Assembly: GCA_902583645.1 (NCBI GenBank)
Contig: CACHWQ010000004.1
Span: 1 to 64,000, forward strand
Source of the DNA: an uncultured Pelagibacteraceae bacterium
Lineage (GTDB): Bacteria; Pseudomonadota; Alphaproteobacteria; Pelagibacterales; Pelagibacteraceae
Direction of reading: 5' to 3'
Length of the DNA: 64,000 nt
Positions 2,087 to 27,524 of the stretch are shown one piece after another. Each line of letters opens with the position of its first letter. Within the stretch, counting starts at the first letter, position 1. The translations under genes were made by a program, and so were the position numbers. The notes below the pieces were generated by a model, which did not search any database, was not told the DNA's origin, and worked only from the letters and a program-made list of their open reading frames with translations.

Positions 2087-3655
2087 GTGATCGATAAAGC
2101 TAATATAGATAAGACAAACTCTTGGCCTTTTGTTGAAGCCAAGAAAATACTTAAAGAAAGAAACAAATCAATAAAAAGCAAAGGTAAAATTACTCTTCAA
2201 ACAGGATATGGTCCTAGCGGACTTCCTCATATAGGAACCTTTGGAGAGGTTGCTAGAACCAGCATGATTGTCAATGCATTAAACCAGATTACAGACATAC
2301 CTAAAGAAATAATTACTTTTTCCGATGATATGGATGGATTAAGAAAAATTCCAGATAATGTTCCTAATCAAAAAAGATTAGAGGAGAATTTGCACAAACC
2401 ACTTACTTCCGTCCCAGATCCTTTTGAAAAATTTGACAGCTTTGGTGAACATAACAATGAAATGCTTAAAAAATTTTTAGATAATTTTAGTTTTAAATAT
2501 ACTTTTAAAAGTTCAACAAAACTCTATAAAGCTGGTTTTTTTAACGAAACACTAAATCATATATTAAAAAATTATAATGGAATAATGAATATAATAATCC
2601 CAACCCTTGGTAAGGAAAGACAAAAAACTTACTCACCATTTCTTCCAATTTGTCCTAATACAAATAAGGTTTTGGAAATACCAGTTTTAGAGATAGATGA
2701 AAAAAAATCAAAAATTATTTTTGATAATAGTGGTCAAAAACTTGAAGCAAGTATTTTAGATGGAAATTGCAAGCTGCAATGGAAAGTTGACTGGGCAATG
2801 AGATGGTATGCATTAGATATTGATTTTGAGATGTATGGAAAAGATCTTATCGAAAGTGCAATACTATCAACAAAAATTATTAAACTGCTAGGAAAACAAA
2901 ATCCGAGTGGATTTGCCTATGAACTGTTCTTAGACGAAAAGGGAGAAAAAATTTCAAAATCAAAAGGTAATGGAATAACGATTGATCAATGGCTAGAATA
3001 TGCTTCTCCAGAAAGTTTATCTTTGTTTATGTATCAAAATCCAAAGAGAGCAAAAAAACTTTATAAAGAAATAATACCAAAATCTGTTGATGAATACTTA
3101 GATTTTATTGAAAAAGGTAAATCTCAGGATGATCTTCAGCTCCTCATGAATCCAGCTTGGCATGTTCATAGTTCAAATATGCCTAAGGAAAATTATATAA
3201 TGAGCTTTTCTATGCTTTTAAATTTAGTTGAAACTAGCAATGCTGATAATAAAGATTTGTTATGGAAGTTTGTTAAAAAATATAAAACAGATATTTCAGA
3301 AAACAAACAACCTATATTTGATAGTTTAGTAGGATATGCAATCAAATATTTTAATGACGTAATAAAAAAGACAAAAAAATACAAAAAACCAAATAATGAT
3401 GAAAAAAATGCTTTGGAAGCTTTAATAAATGCTCTTGATGATTGTAATGATGAAATGAAACCAGAAGATATTCAAACAAAAATTTATTCTGTTGGAAAAG
3501 AAAATGGTTATGAGAAAAATTTGCGAGATTGGTTTAAGTTAATTTATGAAGTTGTTTTTGGTGTTGAAAATGGTCCAAGAATTGGTTTTTTTATTAGTTT
3601 TTTTGGTGTTAAAGAAACTAAAATTTTAATAAAAGAAAAGTTAAACAATGTTTGA
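2087..3655 (+). CDS. lysK: Lysyl-tRNA synthetase, class I
   Basis: Charges tRNA-Lys in the cytoplasm. At 522 residues it is a class I enzyme, not the class II LysS of most bacteria. The Rossmann-fold signatures are the HIGH-type motif HIGT at 48-51 (in GPSGLPHIGT) and the KMSKS-type motif KISKS at 288-292. The start is a GTG at 2087: an upstream ATG at 2069 hits a stop at once and the next internal ATG lies after the HIGH motif. Class I LysRS is characteristic of archaea, spirochaetes and many alphaproteobacteria. Its 3' end overlaps pyrD by eight bases, so the two are probably cotranscribed. Confidence 0.95.
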   Translation: MIDKANIDKTNSWPFVEAKKILKERNKSIKSKGKITLQTGYGPSGLPHIGTFGEVARTSMIVNALNQITDIPKEIITFSDDMDGLRKIPDNVPNQKRLEENLHKPLTSVPDPFEKFDSFGEHNNEMLKKFLDNFSFKYTFKSSTKLYKAGFFNETLNHILKNYNGIMNIIIPTLGKERQKTYSPFLPICPNTNKVLEIPVLEIDEKKSKIIFDNSGQKLEASILDGNCKLQWKVDWAMRWYALDIDFEMYGKDLIESAILSTKIIKLLGKQNPSGFAYELFLDEKGEKISKSKGNGITIDQWLEYASPESLSLFMYQNPKRAKKLYKEIIPKSVDEYLDFIEKGKSQDDLQLLMNPAWHVHSSNMPKENYIMSFSMLLNLVETSNADNKDLLWKFVKKYKTDISENKQPIFDSLVGYAIKYFNDVIKKTKKYKKPNNDEKNALEALINALDDCNDEMKPEDIQTKIYSVGKENGYEKNLRDWFKLIYEVVFGVENGPRIGFFISFFGVKETKILIKEKLNNV

Positions 3656-4688
3656 AAAAATTAGAGGTCTAATATTTAAATTAGATCCAGAAACAGCGCA
3701 TAATTTAGCAATTAAAACATTAAAGTTTAATTTTATCCCAAATAAAAAAGTTCAACAAAATAATCTTTTAGAAACTAAGATCTTTGGTAAAAAAATACCA
3801 AACCCTATTGGCATTGCAGCTGGCTTTGATAAAGATGCTGAAGTATATAATTCCTTATTTAAATTAGGATTTGGCTATGTCGAGGTTGGCACTATTACGC
3901 CACTCAAGCAGTATGGTAATCCTAAACCTAGAGTTTTCAGACTTGAGGAGGACGAAGCATTAATAAATAGATTGGGATTTAATAATTCAGGCTCAGATAA
4001 AGTAAGATCTAGAATATTATCCAGTCCACCTACTGGTCTTTTAGGAATAAATATAGGACCCAATAAAGATACAAAAGATAGAGTAAAAGATTTTTTAGTT
4101 GGTTTAAGAAAATTCCATGACATTGGAGACTATTTAACAATAAATATTTCATCACCAAATACTGAAAATTTAAGAAATTTTCATAACGACGAGGAGATGG
4201 GTGAACTGCTTGAAGAAATACAAACTGAAAAAGATAAACTGAAAACAAATATTCCTATTGCAATAAAAATTTCTCCTGATTTGGAGTTTAAAAGCATTGA
4301 TAAAATATGTGAAATTTTAATTAAAAATAAAATTTCTACAGTAATTATTTCAAATTCTACTGATAGAACTAGAGAAAATTTAAAAAATATTAACAAATTA
4401 GAAAAAGGGGGATTGTCAGGAAAACCTCTAGAAAATAAGTCAAATTTTTTAATAAATGAATTTTATAAAAGTTTTAAATCAGATATTACAATAATAGGTG
4501 TTGGTGGTATTGATAGTGGCAGATCAGTTTATGAAAAAATAATTAATGGAGCAAAGCTTGTTCAACTTTACACAGGAATGGTTTTTAAAGGTCCTAATAT
4601 TGTATTTAAAATAAATAATGAATTGATAGAAATTATAAAAAAAACTGGCGTAAATAATATTTCAGAACTAAGAGGTTCTAAAAAATAA
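3648..4688 (+). CDS. pyrD: Dihydroorotate dehydrogenase (quinone), class 2
   Basis: Oxidises dihydroorotate to orotate in pyrimidine synthesis, passing electrons to membrane quinone through FMN. The 346-residue length and N-terminal amphipathic segment (about 1-40) are those of membrane-associated class 2 enzymes. Visible landmarks are [11 protein letters not shown] (55-65), the NRLGFNNSG segment near 107-115, and NISSPNT (166-172), where class 2 enzymes have a serine base instead of the class 1 cysteine. FMN phosphate-binding elements GVGGIDSG and LVQLYTGMV lie near the C-terminus. The ATG overlaps the lysK stop by eight bases, indicating coupled translation. Confidence 0.96.
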
Positions 4689-4690
4689 CC

Positions 4691-4719
4691 TTGACGTAGT
4701 AATTTTCTACGAATATACA
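4691..4719 (+). promoter_or_regulatory. Sigma-70-type promoter for rpmB
   Basis: TTGACG at 4691-4696 and TATACA at 4714-4719 are separated by exactly 17 bases. They lie in the 43-base gap between pyrD and rpmB. Transcription would start about 6-8 bases downstream, leaving a leader of only a few bases before the ATG at 4732. This is the cleanest promoter match in the window. Confidence 0.65.
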
Positions 4720-4731
4720 TTCTTAAAATTT

Positions 4732-5013
4732 ATGTCAAAAAAATGTGAACTAACTGGAAAAATACCTTTAAAAGGTCATAAGGTAAGTCATGCGAATAAT
4801 AAAACTAAAAGAAGATTTTTACCAAATTTAAAGAAAGTAAGATTTAAGAGTGAAACATTAAATAAAAGTTTAAAATTGACTGTTTCTAACTCTGGTATCC
4901 GTTCTGTTGATAAAAAAGGAAGTTTTGACCAATTTATAAAATCAGCAAAAAGCAAAAACTTATCTTTTAGATTAAAAAAAATTAAGAAAACTCTATTAAA
5001 TAAATCAGTTTAA
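4732..5013 (+). CDS. rpmB: 50S ribosomal protein L28
   Basis: Small basic ribosomal protein, 93 residues, within the 75-100 range of alphaproteobacterial L28. It starts [32 protein letters not shown], carrying the conserved C-x-TGK...G..VSHA.NKTKR.F.PNL pattern of the family. It has its own strong promoter signature just upstream. The stop codon shares one base with the next ATG (TAATG), coupling it to the queuosine-precursor transporter. Confidence 0.96.
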
Positions 5014-5561
5014 TGAACAAAGTATTTATTTCCCTAGCGTTTTTGATGGGTTTAGTTGTTTTATCTTCTAATTATCTTGTTCAGTTTCCAATTAAACATT
5101 ATGGATTAGAGGAAATTTTAACTTACGGTGCCTTTAGCTATCCCATAGCTTTTTTAATAACTGATCTTGCGAATAGATCATTTGGTAAAATAGTTGCAAG
5201 AAAAATAGTTTATATAGGGTTTACGATTGGAATTTTATTCACTTTAATATTTTCTACAAATTTTGCTGACCTAATTTCTGTAAGAATTGCCATTGGTTCA
5301 GGCACTGCCTTCATAATTGCGCAGTTACTAGATGTGCAAATTTTCGATCAATTAAGGCAAAAGAAGTGGTTTATTGCTCCATTAACATCTTCGTTAGTAG
5401 GTTCAACTGTTGATACATTTTTATTTTTCTCGATTTCATTTTATGGAACGGGAATACCTTGGGTAACATTATCATTAGGAGATTTGGCGGTTAAAATATT
5501 TGTAGCATTGTTAATGCTTATCCCGTTTAGATTGTTACTTGGTACACTCAAATCTGCCTAA
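5013..5561 (+). CDS. yhhQ: Queuosine precursor transporter, VUT/YhhQ family
   Basis: Integral membrane protein of 182 residues with about five to six hydrophobic segments. The VUT-family (DUF165) pattern is visible: an early GAFSYPIAFLITDLANRSFG stretch, with the typical TD-x-x-x-x-x-FG, and a later IAQLLDVQIFDQLRQ segment. The E. coli member imports the queuosine precursors preQ0/preQ1; that substrate is carried over from the family and is not shown here. It is somewhat shorter than E. coli YhhQ (about 220 residues). Cotranscription with rpmB is likely from the one-base overlap. Confidence 0.85.
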   Translation: MNKVFISLAFLMGLVVLSSNYLVQFPIKHYGLEEILTYGAFSYPIAFLITDLANRSFGKIVARKIVYIGFTIGILFTLIFSTNFADLISVRIAIGSGTAFIIAQLLDVQIFDQLRQKKWFIAPLTSSLVGSTVDTFLFFSISFYGTGIPWVTLSLGDLAVKIFVALLMLIPFRLLLGTLKSA

Positions 5562-6620
5562 TTAAAGTTTTGGTTCTTGTTGCGTCATGCAATGTATTGC
5601 ACCAAATCCCCAAATTAATCTGCTACAGTCAACTGGTATTATTTTTTTATTTTTAAAAAAATTACTAAATATTTTGATTACTTCTTTATCTTCTTTTACA
5701 TTAAAAATAGGTAATAAAACTTTTTTATTAGTAATTAAAAAATTTAAATAACTTGCGGGAACTCTTATTTTTTTAATAAATATTGGTGTAGGCATTGGAA
5801 TTTTAATTATTTTAAATTTTTTTTTTTTATTATTTCTTTTTCTAGATAATATTTTTAAATTTTGTTTTAAGTTTTTAAAATTTGTGTCTTTTTTGTTATT
5901 TTCTACTGCGGTCATTATTGTATTTTTACTTACAAATCGAGCAATATCATCAATATGCCCATGAGTATCATCCCCTGATATCCCCTTTTTCAGCCAAATA
6001 AAATTATTGATACCTAAATATCTTGAAAAGATATCCTCATAATCTTTTTTTTTGAAACCCTTATTTCTTTCTTGTACTTTACTGAGTAGGCACTCTTCAG
6101 TAAGTAGCAAAGATTTATCTCCGTTTGTATCAAATGCTCCGCCTTCCATAACTATTGATCTAATCTTTTTACCAAGTTTAATTTTTGGTTTAATTGTTTG
6201 GATTTTTGTAACTTTGCTTATATTATTATTAATTTTATTATCGTTACTAAAATTATGATATTTCGCCCATGCATTAAATTTAAAATCTAATATGACTTTC
6301 TTTTTTATTGTCCTATTAATTAAGAAAATTGGTCCTGAGTCCCGCAACCATATTCTATCAGTTTTAATTTTATGAAAACTAATATTACTTATTTTAGCTT
6401 TATAGAATTTTAATATTTTTAAAACTTGTTGTTTATCCTCATTAATTAACAAATCAACTTTCTGGTTTTCTGAAATTGCTTTAACAATTTTCGCAACTAC
6501 TTCTGGAATAAAATAAAAAAGAGCTGGCCAATCTTTTTTATTATAGGGCCATGCTATCCAAATTGATTTTTGAGGTTCCCATTCGGCAGGCATCCTAAAT
6601 CCATCAAGTTTCTCAATCAT
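5562..6620 (-). CDS. aguA: Agmatine deiminase
   Basis: Converts agmatine to N-carbamoylputrescine plus ammonia (guanidine-modifying/Porphyromonas peptidylarginine deiminase fold). The 352 residues begin with the family opening FRMPAEWEPQKSIWIAWP. WLRDSGP is at 91-97, EGGAFD at 159-164 and GDDTHGHIDD at 216-225, which supplies the catalytic His and Asp. The nucleophile is Cys344 in GAIHCMTQQEP, nine residues from the end. It is the last gene of the polyamine operon and its start overlaps the aguB stop by eight bases. No arginine decarboxylase, the usual source of agmatine, is visible in the window. Confidence 0.95.
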   Translation of the reverse strand: MIEKLDGFRMPAEWEPQKSIWIAWPYNKKDWPALFYFIPEVVAKIVKAISENQKVDLLINEDKQQVLKILKFYKAKISNISFHKIKTDRIWLRDSGPIFLINRTIKKKVILDFKFNAWAKYHNFSNDNKINNNISKVTKIQTIKPKIKLGKKIRSIVMEGGAFDTNGDKSLLLTEECLLSKVQERNKGFKKKDYEDIFSRYLGINNFIWLKKGISGDDTHGHIDDIARFVSKNTIMTAVENNKKDTNFKNLKQNLKILSRKRNNKKKKFKIIKIPMPTPIFIKKIRVPASYLNFLITNKKVLLPIFNVKEDKEVIKIFSNFFKNKKIIPVDCSRLIWGFGAIHCMTQQEPKL

Positions 6621-22133: not shown

Positions 22134-22716
22134 TATTTTATTTTTATTAGTTTGTTTATTACTTTTTTCTTGTTCTTCTATTCCTAAAAATACTGCAGAT
22201 GGTTGTTCAATATTTTCTGAAAGATATCTTTGGTATAAACATGCAAAAAATACTGAAAAAAAATGGGGTACCCCAATATATTTGCAGCTTGCTATAATTA
22301 AAATGGAGTCAGATTTTGATTGGCTTGCAAAACCAAAAAGAAATAAAATTTTTAAAGTTATTCCGTATAAAAGACCATCTTCTTCGTTTGGATATTCCCA
22401 AGCAGTTAAAGGAACATGGAAACAATATAAGCAAGAAACTAATAATCCACTAGCGACAAGAACTCGTTTTAAGGACAGTGTAGATTTTATAGGATGGTAC
22501 ACTAATAAAACTGAGAAAATTTTAAAAATTTCAAAAAAAGATGTATTTAGGCAATATATTGCTTATCATGAGGGATGGGGAAACTACAAAAACTATAAAC
22601 AAAATTCTAAAGTTATATCTCTAGCTAAGAAGGTTCAAACACAATCTAAAAAGTATAAGTCGCAATTATCAAAATGCAAAAGTTCTCTCAAAACAAGAAA
22701 ATATATTATTTTTTAA
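22117..22716 (+). CDS. Lysozyme-fold (SLT-like) lipoprotein
   Basis: 199 residues. A lipoprotein signal peptide ends in the lipobox LFSC with Cys19. The mature part resembles a transglycosylase domain: LQLAIIKMESDFDW (57-70), where Glu64 is in the position of the catalytic acid, SSSFGYSQAVKGTW like the GLMQ region, and RQYIAYHEGWGNY near the end, matching the AYNGG/YHEG element of the family. It would cleave or remodel peptidoglycan at the outer membrane. Overlaps the nuclease gene upstream and, by four bases, the convergent RND pump gene. Enzyme activity is inferred from the fold pattern. Confidence 0.78.
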   Translation: MKKKNNILFLLVCLLLFSCSSIPKNTADGCSIFSERYLWYKHAKNTEKKWGTPIYLQLAIIKMESDFDWLAKPKRNKIFKVIPYKRPSSSFGYSQAVKGTWKQYKQETNNPLATRTRFKDSVDFIGWYTNKTEKILKISKKDVFRQYIAYHEGWGNYKNYKQNSKVISLAKKVQTQSKKYKSQLSKCKSSLKTRKYIIF

Positions 22717-25700
22717 TTAAGTTGTTTTTTTAATTCAATATCAACAGCATCAATTCTTTTAGTGTTTTTTGCTAACATCAAATACATAGTTGGGGTCACA
22801 TAAAGAGTAAAAAATGTTGATATAATCATGCCACCTAAAATAGTAGATCCAACTGCAAGTCTAGAACCTTCTCCAGCTCCAGGTCCAATATTTCCAATTA
22901 CCAATGGAACCATTGCTATCATTGTGCTTAGAGATGTCATTATTATAGGTCTAAATCTCATATCACATGCTTCCTTAATTGCATTTTCAATACTTTTACC
23001 GGATGCTCTAAGTTGATTTGCAAAATCCACTATTAAAATACTATTTTTTGTAGATATACCAATCAGAATAACAAGTGCAATTTGTGAAAAAATATTGATT
23101 GAACTATTTAAAAAAAGAATGAAAACCAACCCACCAAATACTGCTAATGGTACTGTCATTATAATTATAAATGGATGAATAAATGAATTAAAAGTAGCAG
23201 CCATAACTAGATATGCGGTTACTAATGCCAACCCAAATATAATAAATAATTCATTAGAAGTTTCTTTTAATTCCTCAGATTTTCCTTTCCAAGAAATCTG
23301 ATTCTGAGGTGATATATTTTCTATAGTTTTTTCTAAATATTTAATTGCTTCACTTAATGAATACCCCTCATTAATATTAGCAGATATAGTTACTGCTCTT
23401 TGTCTATTATATCTTGAAAGTGTTTTAGCTGACCCTTCTTCCTTAAAATCAACTAAGTTTGCCAATGAAATAAGTTTTGAATTATTTTCAGATCTTACAA
23501 AAATTTTTGCCAGACTTTCTTTACTTCTTCTATCTGATAAATATTTTTGTAGAATAATTGGATATTCCTTTCCAAGCTTATTAAATGTTGTCACAGTTTT
23601 TCCACCGTAGAGAGTCTCCAAAGTCTTACCTATCTGATCTGTTGATACCCCTAAATCTTTTAATTTATTTTTGTTTATAATTAACTTTACTTCTGGTTTG
23701 TTTTTAGAATAATCTGACTCAATTCTTGATAAATTTTTATTCTTTCTTAATTCTGATATAAAATTATTCTGTATTTCCTCAAGCTCTTCGTAAGATGATC
23801 CTAAAATTACCATTTGGACTGGTTTGTTATAATTTGAGACTCTTATTGATTGCGGTGAAATAGGAAAAGCAATTGCCTGTGGATTAGTTACTATTTTTCC
23901 AATGGCTTCTCTCATTACTGATTGAGTATTTTTACTCCTTTCATCCCAATGATTTAATAAAGCTATTATTATAAATGTATTAAACGAATTACTTGATCTG
24001 CCGAAACCAGGAACTCGCATTATAAATCTTCTATATGGGCTATTTTTTTCTTGTAGCAAAGGAATTAATTTAGACTCTATTTCCTGGGCTCTTTCTTGTG
24101 TATACTCAAATGAGCTTCCTTCATCAGTCATCCCAATTATTAAATATGCCCCTCTGTCTTCAAGAGGAAGCAGTTCTTTTTTTGATAAGCTAAACAATAA
24201 TACTGATGAAACAATTACTATAATCATAAAGGAAATTACTAACTTCTGTTTGTCTAGAAAATAAGTGAGGCTTTCTTTATAAAATTTTAAAAATGATTTA
24301 AAAAAATTATTAAATTTAGTTATAATTTTATTTTGTTTTGGTTTCAAAGTTAAAAATCTACTTCCAAGCATTGGTGATAAAGTTAGTGCAACAAAAGATG
24401 AGACCACTACAGAAAAAGATAATGCTATTGCAGTTTCTCTAAATAAAGTTCCTGAAATTCCTTTTATGAAAATTAGAGGTAAAAATACTGCAACTAATAT
24501 TAAAGTAGTAGCAATTATTGCGAATGTAATCTGCTTTGATCCTTTATAAGCAGCCATAAGTGGTTTTTCCCCTTTTTCAATTCTTCTATAAATTGCGTCT
24601 GTCATAATCACCGAGTCATCTGTAATTATTCCAATTGCTAAAATAAAAGATAATAAAACAAAAATATTTATGGACAGATCGAAAATATAAATTCCCAAAA
24701 AAGATGCAATTAGACTAACTGGAAGCGCAACTGCCGGAACAATGACCGCTTTTAAGTTTCCAAGAAATAAATAAATAATGATTACAACTAAAATAAAAGC
24801 TATGAAAAGAGTTTTGTATACTTCATTGATAGCGGCCCCTACATAGTTTGCTCTATTAAATGCAACTTCAATATTTAATCCATCTGGTAATGATTTTCTA
24901 ACTTCTTTTATTTTTTTTTTGATATCTTTTGATAGTTCGACGGTTGATGCTCCACTTCTGGCATAGATACCTATACCAACCGTTTTTAAGTTAAGATTGC
25001 CTTTTCTTTGTGCTTTGAATAATGTTTTTTCAGAAACAGGTCCAAACTCAACTTGAGCAACATCAGATAATTTTACTATATTGTCTTTGTTCTTTTTTAA
25101 AGGTAAACTTTTTAATTGATCAATAGTTGTATAAGATTTATCTAGATTAAGTGTAAGATCAACATTAGTTGCTTCTAAAGTTCCAGCTGGAAGACTTACA
25201 TTTTCGCTTCTGAGTGCATTTTCTAATTCTTGTATGGTTAAATCATTAGCAGCTAATTTTATTGGGTCTATCCAAATCCTAACACTTAACTCTCTAAGAC
25301 CACCTACTAAAATTCTACCAACATTTTTAATACTTGAGAACCTATCAACCAAATATCTCTCTGCATAATCTCCCAATTCTAAATCACTCCATGTAGGAGA
25401 AGAAAGTGCAATCCACATAGTTGTTGTAAAACCTGCTGCCTGTTTTAATATTTGAGGAGGCTCAGCCTCAGTAGGCAAGTTATCTGCAACCCTAGCTACT
25501 CTTTCTCTTATATCGTTTGCAGCATTATCTAAGTCCATTTCTGTATCAAACTCTATGCTAATTGTGCTTCGCCCATTTTCAGAAACAGAATCAATATTTT
25601 TAATACCTTCTGCTCCACCAATCACATCCTCTAATACCTGAGTAACCTCTTGATCAATTATTGGTGCTGACGCAGACTTGTAATCCACCTTCACTTGAAC

Positions 25701-25835
25701 AACAGGTGGCTGGAGACCTGACGGCAGTTCTCTTACAGGTAACTTCCAAAATACAAATAAACCAAATAAAACTAATATAAGAGACATTACCCAAGAGACT
25801 ACAGGTCTTCGTATACTTAAATCAGTTATAAACAT
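22713..25835 (-). CDS. RND (HAE1-type) efflux pump, inner-membrane transporter
   Basis: 1040-residue proton-driven exporter, the AcrB/MexF length. It opens with the family pattern FITDLSIRRPVVSWVMSL. The proton-relay Asp pair in helix 4 is intact (GIITDDSVIM), as is the helix 10 lysine (IGISTKNSILIVDFA). Two large periplasmic loops follow helices 1 and 7. It clusters with the hydrophobic/amphiphile-efflux family rather than metal pumps. Coupled to the adaptor gene immediately upstream (zero-base gap). No TolC-like outer-membrane gene is nearby. Substrates are unknown. Confidence 0.93.
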   Translation of the reverse strand: MFITDLSIRRPVVSWVMSLILVLFGLFVFWKLPVRELPSGLQPPVVQVKVDYKSASAPIIDQEVTQVLEDVIGGAEGIKNIDSVSENGRSTISIEFDTEMDLDNAANDIRERVARVADNLPTEAEPPQILKQAAGFTTTMWIALSSPTWSDLELGDYAERYLVDRFSSIKNVGRILVGGLRELSVRIWIDPIKLAANDLTIQELENALRSENVSLPAGTLEATNVDLTLNLDKSYTTIDQLKSLPLKKNKDNIVKLSDVAQVEFGPVSEKTLFKAQRKGNLNLKTVGIGIYARSGASTVELSKDIKKKIKEVRKSLPDGLNIEVAFNRANYVGAAINEVYKTLFIAFILVVIIIYLFLGNLKAVIVPAVALPVSLIASFLGIYIFDLSINIFVLLSFILAIGIITDDSVIMTDAIYRRIEKGEKPLMAAYKGSKQITFAIIATTLILVAVFLPLIFIKGISGTLFRETAIALSFSVVVSSFVALTLSPMLGSRFLTLKPKQNKIITKFNNFFKSFLKFYKESLTYFLDKQKLVISFMIIVIVSSVLLFSLSKKELLPLEDRGAYLIIGMTDEGSSFEYTQERAQEIESKLIPLLQEKNSPYRRFIMRVPGFGRSSNSFNTFIIIALLNHWDERSKNTQSVMREAIGKIVTNPQAIAFPISPQSIRVSNYNKPVQMVILGSSYEELEEIQNNFISELRKNKNLSRIESDYSKNKPEVKLIINKNKLKDLGVSTDQIGKTLETLYGGKTVTTFNKLGKEYPIILQKYLSDRRSKESLAKIFVRSENNSKLISLANLVDFKEEGSAKTLSRYNRQRAVTISANINEGYSLSEAIKYLEKTIENISPQNQISWKGKSEELKETSNELFIIFGLALVTAYLVMAATFNSFIHPFIIIMTVPLAVFGGLVFILFLNSSINIFSQIALVILIGISTKNSILIVDFANQLRASGKSIENAIKEACDMRFRPIIMTSLSTMIAMVPLVIGNIGPGAGEGSRLAVGSTILGGMIISTFFTLYVTPTMYLMLAKNTKRIDAVDIELKKQLN

Positions 25836-26705
25836 TTATTTTTTTATTGGTTTAATTTTACCTTTTGGATTTACTTTTTTAAGACCCTCAGCAACTATTA
25901 GATCTCCTTCATTTAGTCCTGAAATTACCTCTATAAGTCCTTCATCTCTATTTCCTATTTGGATTTGAATTTTGTTTAAACTATTATCTTCAAGCACTCT
26001 ATAAACAAAAGCATTCTCCCCTTCTAACATCACACTTGTATCAGGAACTGATATAGAGCTTCTTTCATTGAATTTTACACTTACTTCAAGTAGCGACCCT
26101 GGTATCAGCTCGTAATCCTTATTATTTATTTTTATTCTTGTTAGTAAACTTCTAGTATCTGCACTAATTCTACTCGAATAACCTTCTACTTTTCCTGAAA
26201 AAATTTTATTTTTTAACCCTGAAAACTTTACATCTACAGGTAAATTTTTTTTAATAACTGGAGCGAAAGACTCTGGTATTTTTAAGTCAGCGTATATTAC
26301 TGAACTATCATCCAAAGTTATTATTAATGAATTGTCAGATCCAAGAACATCTTCAGTTATACCTCGATAACCTAGTACACCACTAAATGGTGCAATAATA
26401 TCCCTATCTTTCAATTTTACTATTAGGGATCCTTTTTCTACATAATTGTCTAATTTTAGTTCTGAAATTAAGTCACTTTTTTGAATTCGATATGACTTTG
26501 TTTTTTTAGAAATTGCTGTACCAAAACTCTCAATTTTCTCCGAGAAAACTTTTTCAGAGACTAATTTGACAATTATTCCGGGAGGTGGTCTTTTACTAAA
26601 TTTTTTTTTAAAATGATTTCCTACCATTGTTCTTCCAATTACAACAATAGCAATTACTATAAAAAAAATTACAACACCGATTAAAACTTTTTTTGAGGTT
26701 TTCAT
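25836..26705 (-). CDS. RND periplasmic adaptor (MFP) lacking the alpha-hairpin
   Basis: 289 residues, short for this family (about 350-400). An N-terminal membrane anchor (about 8-27) is followed by the lipoyl/barrel-sandwich domain, beta-barrel and membrane-proximal domain. In ordinary adaptors the two lipoyl halves are split by a coiled-coil hairpin of roughly 60 or more residues that docks on TolC. Here the first half (VEKGSLIVKLKD, about 89-100) runs straight into the second (IIAPFSGVLGYRG, about 103-115), so the hairpin is gone. A hairpin-less adaptor is known from Borrelia (BesA). The first gene of the pump operon, just downstream of the sulfurtransferase gene. Confidence 0.88.
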   Translation of the reverse strand: MKTSKKVLIGVVIFFIVIAIVVIGRTMVGNHFKKKFSKRPPPGIIVKLVSEKVFSEKIESFGTAISKKTKSYRIQKSDLISELKLDNYVEKGSLIVKLKDRDIIAPFSGVLGYRGITEDVLGSDNSLIITLDDSSVIYADLKIPESFAPVIKKNLPVDVKFSGLKNKIFSGKVEGYSSRISADTRSLLTRIKINNKDYELIPGSLLEVSVKFNERSSISVPDTSVMLEGENAFVYRVLEDNSLNKIQIQIGNRDEGLIEVISGLNEGDLIVAEGLKKVNPKGKIKPIKK

Positions 26706-26708
26706 AAA

Positions 26709-27524
26709 TTATATTCTGCCATACTCTGACCATGAGCCATCATAAATGACAGGGTTATATTTATTATCAATTAAGGAATATGCAAGTGCTAAAACTGAGG
26801 CTGTAACTCCAGAGCCACAAGAAAATACAACTTTTGATGAAAAATCATGTTTTAAAACTGATTTAAAAATTTTTGACAATTCATCTTTAGATTTGAATGT
26901 TTTATTCTTTTCCAAAAGTTGTTTGAATGGCAAGCATAAAGAATTTGGTATAGATCCACTTCTTAAGCCTTTTCTCGGCTCTGTTTCTTTCCCCTCAAAT
27001 CTTTCTTTACTTCTCGCATCAAGAATTTTAAATTCCTGTTTTAAGATATTTTCATCTATTTGAATTTTTGATTTTACTAAATCTTTTTTTTCTTTTGAAA
27101 TATATTTAGATTGGGAAAAATTATTTAGTTCTTTAGTAACCAGTCTTTTTTCTGATTGCCATTTTTCAAGGCCGCCATTAAGAACACTTATAAGCCTGGG
27201 GTCATGTCCGAAATAAATAAAACTATACCACAACCTACAAGAACTTATTAAATCTGAATTATCGTAAACGATAATTCTGTCTTCATTTTTTATACCTAAA
27301 CCTGAAATAATTTCATCCCATCTTTTACTAGATGGCAACATATGTGGTAATTCCGATTTTTCATCAGAATTTTTATCTAAATCAAAAAATAATGCATTTG
27401 GTAAATGCTGATTTAAATATTCTTCATATGGATTTCTGGCGGCGCTAGGTAGATGCCAGGAGCAATCAATTAATTTGATTTTACTTAAATTATTTTCGAC
27501 CCAATTTGTTTCTACTAAAGACAT
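26709..27524 (-). CDS. sseA: Thiosulfate/3-mercaptopyruvate sulfurtransferase
   Basis: 271-residue tandem rhodanese protein. The inactive N-terminal domain has VETNWVENNL and IKLIDCSWHLPSAARNPYEEY. The C-terminal domain has ILDARSKERFEGKETEPRKGLRSGSIP and the catalytic loop CGSGVTA with Cys236. CGSGVTA is the mercaptopyruvate-type loop, as opposed to the CRKGVTA of thiosulfate rhodaneses. It would transfer sulfur from mercaptopyruvate to an acceptor such as thioredoxin or cyanide. One base separates it from msrA upstream, and three bases from the RND adaptor, so they probably share a transcript. Confidence 0.92.
   Translation of the reverse strand: MSLVETNWVENNLSKIKLIDCSWHLPSAARNPYEEYLNQHLPNALFFDLDKNSDEKSELPHMLPSSKRWDEIISGLGIKNEDRIIVYDNSDLISSCRLWYSFIYFGHDPRLISVLNGGLEKWQSEKRLVTKELNNFSQSKYISKEKKDLVKSKIQIDENILKQEFKILDARSKERFEGKETEPRKGLRSGSIPNSLCLPFKQLLEKNKTFKSKDELSKIFKSVLKHDFSSKVVFSCGSGVTASVLALAYSLIDNKYNPVIYDGSWSEYGRI

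Follow-up and report, generated by a model that had tools for sequence, protein, structure and literature searches.

A hairpinless periplasmic adaptor in the RND efflux pump of the Pelagibacteraceae (SAR11)

In the AcrA-AcrB-TolC and MexA-MexB-OprM pumps it is the alpha-helical hairpin of the periplasmic adaptor that contacts TolC or OprM, a contact to which present models of AcrAB-TolC-type efflux by resistance-nodulation-division (RND) permeases give a central place. The one solved exception found in print is from a spirochaete, BesA of the BesABC pump of Borrelia burgdorferi (PDB 4KKS, 4KKT, and 4KKU), in which a short loop joins the two halves of the lipoyl domain. A similarly short connection is present in an RND adaptor encoded by a 64,000 nucleotide stretch of DNA (the window: positions 1 to 64,000 of contig CACHWQ010000004.1, assembly GCA_902583645.1) from an uncultured member of the Pelagibacteraceae (SAR11).

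Hairpinless adaptors are a known kind: Greene et al. (PMC3807786) name sequences of this sort from Borrelia, Treponema, and Spirochaeta and, as a rarity, from proteobacteria (Legionella). What is new is a whole family in which the state is fixed, and its alphaproteobacterial surroundings speak for secondary loss. No paper on a hairpinless SAR11 adaptor was found by title or abstract opening in the open-licence literature, nor was a usable paper there on the width of the SAR11 periplasm, a possible reason for a shorter pump, and RND, SAR11, and TolC go unmentioned in the accessible part of PMC8507841.

The first-pass annotation of the window had reported near-contiguous lipoyl half-motifs in this 289-residue protein, which is confirmed. 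The half-motifs are at residues 92–100 (G-S-L-I-V-K-L-K-D) and 103–112 (I-I-A-P-F-S-G-V-L-G), with 12 residues between G92 and A105, where all 19 hairpin-bearing relatives compared (17 alphaproteobacterial sequences from outside the order and two from the sister family) have 73 and both AcrA and MdtA have 87. Ten of the 11 SAR11 rows in this comparison alignment have 12 residues and one has 13. The protein is a member of the RND periplasmic adaptor family (TIGR01730, RND_mfp; 137.2 bits, cut-off 94.9), the match spanning profile positions 130–321 of 322, which lie after the hairpin, and Pfam HlyD_D23 likewise covers the second half alone (profile 110–211 of 214; protein residues 102–203). It shares superfamily and domain order with the adaptors of the AcrA-AcrB-TolC and MexA-MexB-OprM pumps, yet with 12 residues against 73–87, and no hairpin in its model, it is not a canonical AcrA/MexA-type hairpin adaptor.

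AlphaFold2 was run on 43 sequences from the window and from named loci, 80 of which were kept out of 482 stretches encoding a relative. In the adaptor model (mean predicted local distance difference test, pLDDT, 82.3; predicted template modelling score, pTM, 0.65), strands 94–98 and 102–104 are linked by a turn at the hairpin site, the N-terminal helix 5–36 is the only long helix, and beta domains follow; on this model a hairpin elsewhere in the protein was rejected. The best structural matches of the model are all adaptors. Foldseek places BesA second (4kku_A, E 2.5e-14), behind an adaptor from cryo-electron microscopy. On re-ranking with VIA-align BesA comes first (Z 15.2 over 230 residues, root mean square deviation 4.5), with hairpin-bearing adaptors close (Z 13–15); Z gaps under 1 are to be read as ties, so that 9qgy_G (MacA, Z 14.9) ranks level with BesA. 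The predicted architecture is of the BesA type, lacking the hairpin, with a short loop between the lipoyl halves and the other domains retained, and the comparison with BesA that had been drawn from the sequence holds. BesA differs in being lipidated, and identity in the structural alignment is about 17–20%. As read from the sequence, the N-terminus of the SAR11 adaptor appears to be a membrane anchor with no lipoprotein signal; residues H31, F32, K34–F36, and P40–G43 are invariant in the adaptor alignment.

This alignment takes in 48 of the 53 genomes, out of 61 in the genus, that have an adaptor match (one match being partial), and the window sequence is one of the 48. In every one there are exactly 12 residues between the equivalents of G92 and A105, while identity to the window adaptor ranges from 43 to 95%, the window itself excluded. 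Across the Pelagibacteraceae the adaptor is present in 225 of 247 genomes, and in 100 of the 102 with completeness of 90% or more and contamination of 5% or less; the remaining two (G287 and G325) carry truncated permease frames, which suggests that a contig ends at the adaptor. Selection on the adaptor is strongly purifying, with a ratio of nonsynonymous to synonymous substitution rates (dN/dS) of 0.028–0.049 against nine close named relatives and of about 0.10–0.11 against two more distant ones for which dS is high.

The annotation also had the RND partner at full length with its proton-relay residues, and so it proves (1040 residues): D407, D408, K940, R971, and T978 (AcrB numbering), which are shared with the AcrB and MexB pumps, are retained in 11 of 11 SAR11 permeases and in 16 of 16 relatives. 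Remodelling of the permease docking loops was considered and rejected, the loops having the same lengths as in the relatives; SAR11 permeases are longer than these near AcrB 281–290 and 991–1000. For surveys of gene content, genomes of the family were chosen for completeness (65 each for TolC and the permease, 16 for HlyD, and 15 for TIGR01730). The permease family is found in 64 of 65, essentially once per genome, further matches being weak except in G140 and G208, where copies are split or cut.

There is no outer-membrane efflux protein (OEP)/TolC gene in the window, as had been noted, and the search for TolC homologues in the rest of this genome (82% complete) finds one, a gene of 432 codons beside recA on another contig (C3, G000:C3). 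A TolC homologue is present in 60 of the 65 selected, mostly high-quality SAR11 genomes, including 11 of 11 single-contig ones, which means that the channel partner of a tripartite pump is encoded; recA sequence is in the fetched flank of TolC at 25 of 29 loci. The hairpinless adaptor is the sole TIGR01730 protein over the cut-off in 13 of 15 near-complete genomes, and in this SAR11 is like Borrelia, where BesA is reported as the sole adaptor of its genome. No type I HlyD was found over the cut-off in 16 genomes, 13 of which have weak matches. Since these streamlined genomes keep TolC with no other evident adaptor, it is argued that TolC serves the hairpinless pump.

The reading preferred here, and held to be probable, is that of a BesABC-like tripartite pump from which the hairpin was excised once, exporting through the unlinked SAR11 TolC by direct contact of the RND permease and lipoyl domain with the channel. 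The ancestor would have been an ordinary alphaproteobacterial adaptor, its alpha-hairpin cut out in frame (73 to 12 residues) on the SAR11 stem. The adaptor, part of the one RND (AcrB-family) efflux pump that the Pelagibacteraceae have, would be held in the inner membrane by its N-terminal helix and would clamp the permease, and export would proceed through the TolC homologue, whose gene is elsewhere in the genome and mostly next to recA. Contact with the channel mouth would be direct, made by the permease docking domain and the rim of the lipoyl domain, an arrangement already proposed for Borrelia BesABC. RND contact may open the primary lock of TolC (D153/Y362/R367), which is kept, and with the acidic ring at D374 gone there may be no need for the step that is usually ascribed to the hairpin tip. 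More tentatively, it is possible that the permease alone does the work that is elsewhere shared with the hairpin, the ring gate having been removed (D374 to Q) instead of unlocked, and that the hairpin was lost secondarily and only once, the loss becoming fixed across the family in parallel with Borrelia. The annotation had offered two consequences of the missing hairpin, and its interpretation is partly supported: a different contact with the channel is the better supported of the two, given the presence of TolC and, mostly, of no other adaptor, while feeding of the periplasm only appears less favoured.

PMC8277102 describes two gates in TolC, a primary lock (D153, Y362, and R367) and a secondary ring of acids (D371 and D374), the lower lock perhaps opening on RND contact and the acid ring being thought to require the adaptor tip. 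For BesC, the literature gives a disrupted gate system (PMC4446572), ring positions D363 and K366, that is, the first acid kept and a lysine in the second place (PMC2279261), and a link between the missing BesA hairpin and weaker gating (PMC4338810). Among 31 SAR11 TolCs, D153 and Y362 are present in all and R367 in 30, with one K. The site of D371 has D in 16 and E in 15. At D374 none has D, this site being Q in 28 and N, T, and S once each, so that a change at this acid-ring position is common to BesC and SAR11 TolC. The comparison with other Alphaproteobacteria, made on the 28 best-matching loci of 98 genomes with a match, finds D374 kept in 27 of 28.

Several observations weigh against this account of the pump. 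In the sister family (f2) only two of 20 TolCs have D374, and at least five of these 20 are beside a hairpin-bearing adaptor. The proposal that loss of D374 is specific to hairpinless pumps, strong against the 28 TolCs, is weakened by this control (18 of 20 without D374); ring loss therefore fits a hairpinless pump yet is not specific to it. The primary lock is complete in SAR11 TolC, unlike in BesC, where it is lost. No conserved motif that could replace the hairpin in docking is seen at the adaptor's turn, residues 100–102 being variable and K99 present in 39 of 48 sequences, and with docking loops of ordinary length in the permease no compensating contact site is seen. TolC is unlinked to the pump genes in SAR11, whereas besC is in the operon of its pump, and five of the 65 genomes, all drafts in which assembly gaps may be responsible, have no TolC match. 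The pairing with TolC is read from gene content, with no search aimed at TolC partners of the ATP-binding cassette (ABC) type.

These same features would suit a pump of two parts, in which adaptor and RND permease carry substrates to the periplasm from the membrane or cytoplasm, or handle envelope lipids, and TolC serves another purpose: the known TolC-docking hairpin is missing, TolC is unlinked, and no compensating docking site is visible. This is judged unlikely. AcrB-family RND permeases take their substrate mostly from the periplasm, so that export into it would be futile, and TolC has been kept in every single-contig streamlined genome, with no other adaptor in most near-complete ones. 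BesABC, likewise without a hairpin, is reported to confer antibiotic resistance in an operon-dependent way (PMC3807786).

Improbable too, and more so, is the supply of a hairpin in trans, the bridge to TolC being formed by a second adaptor or an accessory protein. Mixed adaptor pairs are known in TriAB-type pumps. There is a fused pair in PDB 6vej, and PDB titles include accessory TolC binders such as YbjP. The surveys of other adaptors given above, both the 13 of 15 genomes for RND-type adaptors and the 16 of 16 for type I HlyD, argue against this, and exceptions are found in genomes G126 and G143, which have another TIGR01730 protein over the cut-off beside the hairpinless adaptor. The extra adaptor-like frames of G126 follow a giant-protein frame, in a region with a second channel-type gene.

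Second TolC-family frames, of 657–926 residues, are present in G126, G143, G226, G236, and G281. That of G126 (L292 and L293; G126:C1:890500-905500 and 912000-926000) is beside the giant-protein frame of more than 3000 residues, with adaptor-like frames of 240 and 445 residues further on, and the region may encode an exporter devoted to a giant surface protein.

The tree of 30 permeases (maximum likelihood, with long branches flagged for AcrB and L216) places the 11 SAR11 permeases in one clade (100/100) nested in the alphaproteobacterial set (98/98, 100/100), the neighbouring adaptors of which carry hairpins. In the alphaproteobacterial loci (L216–L232) a homologous adaptor is directly next to a same-clade permease in 16 of 17 cases; these adaptors have frames of 334–399 residues and, unlike in SAR11, the 73-residue stretch with the hairpin between the lipoyl halves. 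Because the SAR11 permeases form one clade among hairpin-associated alphaproteobacterial pumps, the simplest reading is a probable single loss of the hairpin on the SAR11 stem. A profile search across the class found matches in 317 of 385 genomes. Among the matches listed from outside the family, most start at profile residue 89 or later, about the end of the hairpin site, in frames of at least 334 residues; some start at 57–84 in frames of 338–401 residues, and three of these (G612, G657, and G660) were measured at 73. The frame in G412 has 257 residues, and the sequence preceding its APF motif is long and hairpin-like. The sole full-length match outside the family among those listed, in G495, has the SAR11 form and SAR11 gene order on an 8.5 kb contig and is most likely contamination.

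It was once suggested (PMC2279261) that BesA resembles the progenitor of the adaptors. A primitive hairpinless state in SAR11, or one transferred from another hairpinless lineage such as the spirochaetes, might also be indicated by the lack of a close adaptor match in the order's other family, where 15 of 40 genomes have any match, at 1e-7 or weaker, and the permease is far from the SAR11 clade. The pump of that family is a different one. The nesting of the SAR11 permeases, in the tree of 30 permeases, makes either origin very improbable, as does the fact that a profile of the SAR11 adaptor run against PDB sequences finds MexJ, MexA, and CusB and, at E up to 10, not BesA, a result compatible with a distant common origin of the two. 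The alphaproteobacterial setting would instead mean secondary loss, which bears on the idea of the hairpinless form as progenitor-like.

A sequencing or assembly error, or a decaying gene, has a negligible chance of explaining the short form and is already refuted by the same joint in all 48 genomes, by the independent single-cell and metagenome assemblies of the relatives, and by dN/dS values of 0.03–0.05. Neither a hairpin placed elsewhere in the model, nor an orthologue with one, nor a sequence error was found, and the observation made in the annotation stands.

That there is a second hairpinless pump, with an origin that seems separate from that of Borrelia, suggests that an ordinary alphaproteobacterial pump can do without the arm and that the hairpinless state can arise by loss. 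SAR11, one of the ocean's most numerous groups of bacteria, is a natural test of pump function without the hairpin arm; together with its relatives it offers matched sets that have or lack the arm, on which channel opening and seal could be tested directly. From the gate comparison comes a prediction of which TolC lock the hairpin serves, while the sister family shows that there is no simple rule.

Features of the pump locus in the window
Feature	Coordinates	Strand	Basis
Hairpinless RND periplasmic adaptor, 289 aa	25836..26705	(-)	TIGR01730 score, family orthologues, AlphaFold2 model, dN/dS
12-residue joint, residues 93-104, replacing 73 residues of relatives that include the coiled-coil hairpin	26394..26429	(-)	Orthologue alignment
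Predicted N-terminal membrane-anchor helix, residues 5-36, then conserved basic/proline stretch	26598..26693	(-)	AlphaFold2 model and alignment
RND permease, 1040 aa, cognate partner of the adaptor	22713..25835	(-)	PF00873, 860 bits
Rhodanese-type sulfurtransferase, conserved upstream neighbour of the adaptor (context only)	26709..27524	(-)	PF00581

The gene order msrA, rhodanese, adaptor, permease is conserved in SAR11. In all 75 of the 80 named loci that have enough DNA, the permease directly adjoins the adaptor downstream and the rhodanese is directly upstream. In the sister family (L051 and L052) the operon is composed of TolC, a small regulator-like gene, a hairpin adaptor, and an RND permease. 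By their titles, 79 of the named loci are from Pelagibacteraceae, Pelagibacter, or Pelagibacterales, and one (L083, NZRW01000024.1) is from Neomarinimicrobiota. Both L083 and L291 (G495:C23), the latter in a bin assigned to another alphaproteobacterial family, are SAR11 pump loci and most likely represent binning contamination.

Some SAR11 adaptors (L028–L041, frames of 312–339 residues) have a lysine-rich C-terminal extension of about 20–50 residues after the membrane-proximal domain. In G140, a single-contig family genome of genus g15, the permease is present as two overlapping frames (L235, G140:C1:267500-276500, at about 3060–6163) beside an intact hairpinless adaptor. These frames match residues 1–507 and 496–1039 of the window permease, and a frameshift, an error, or a true split are the candidate explanations.
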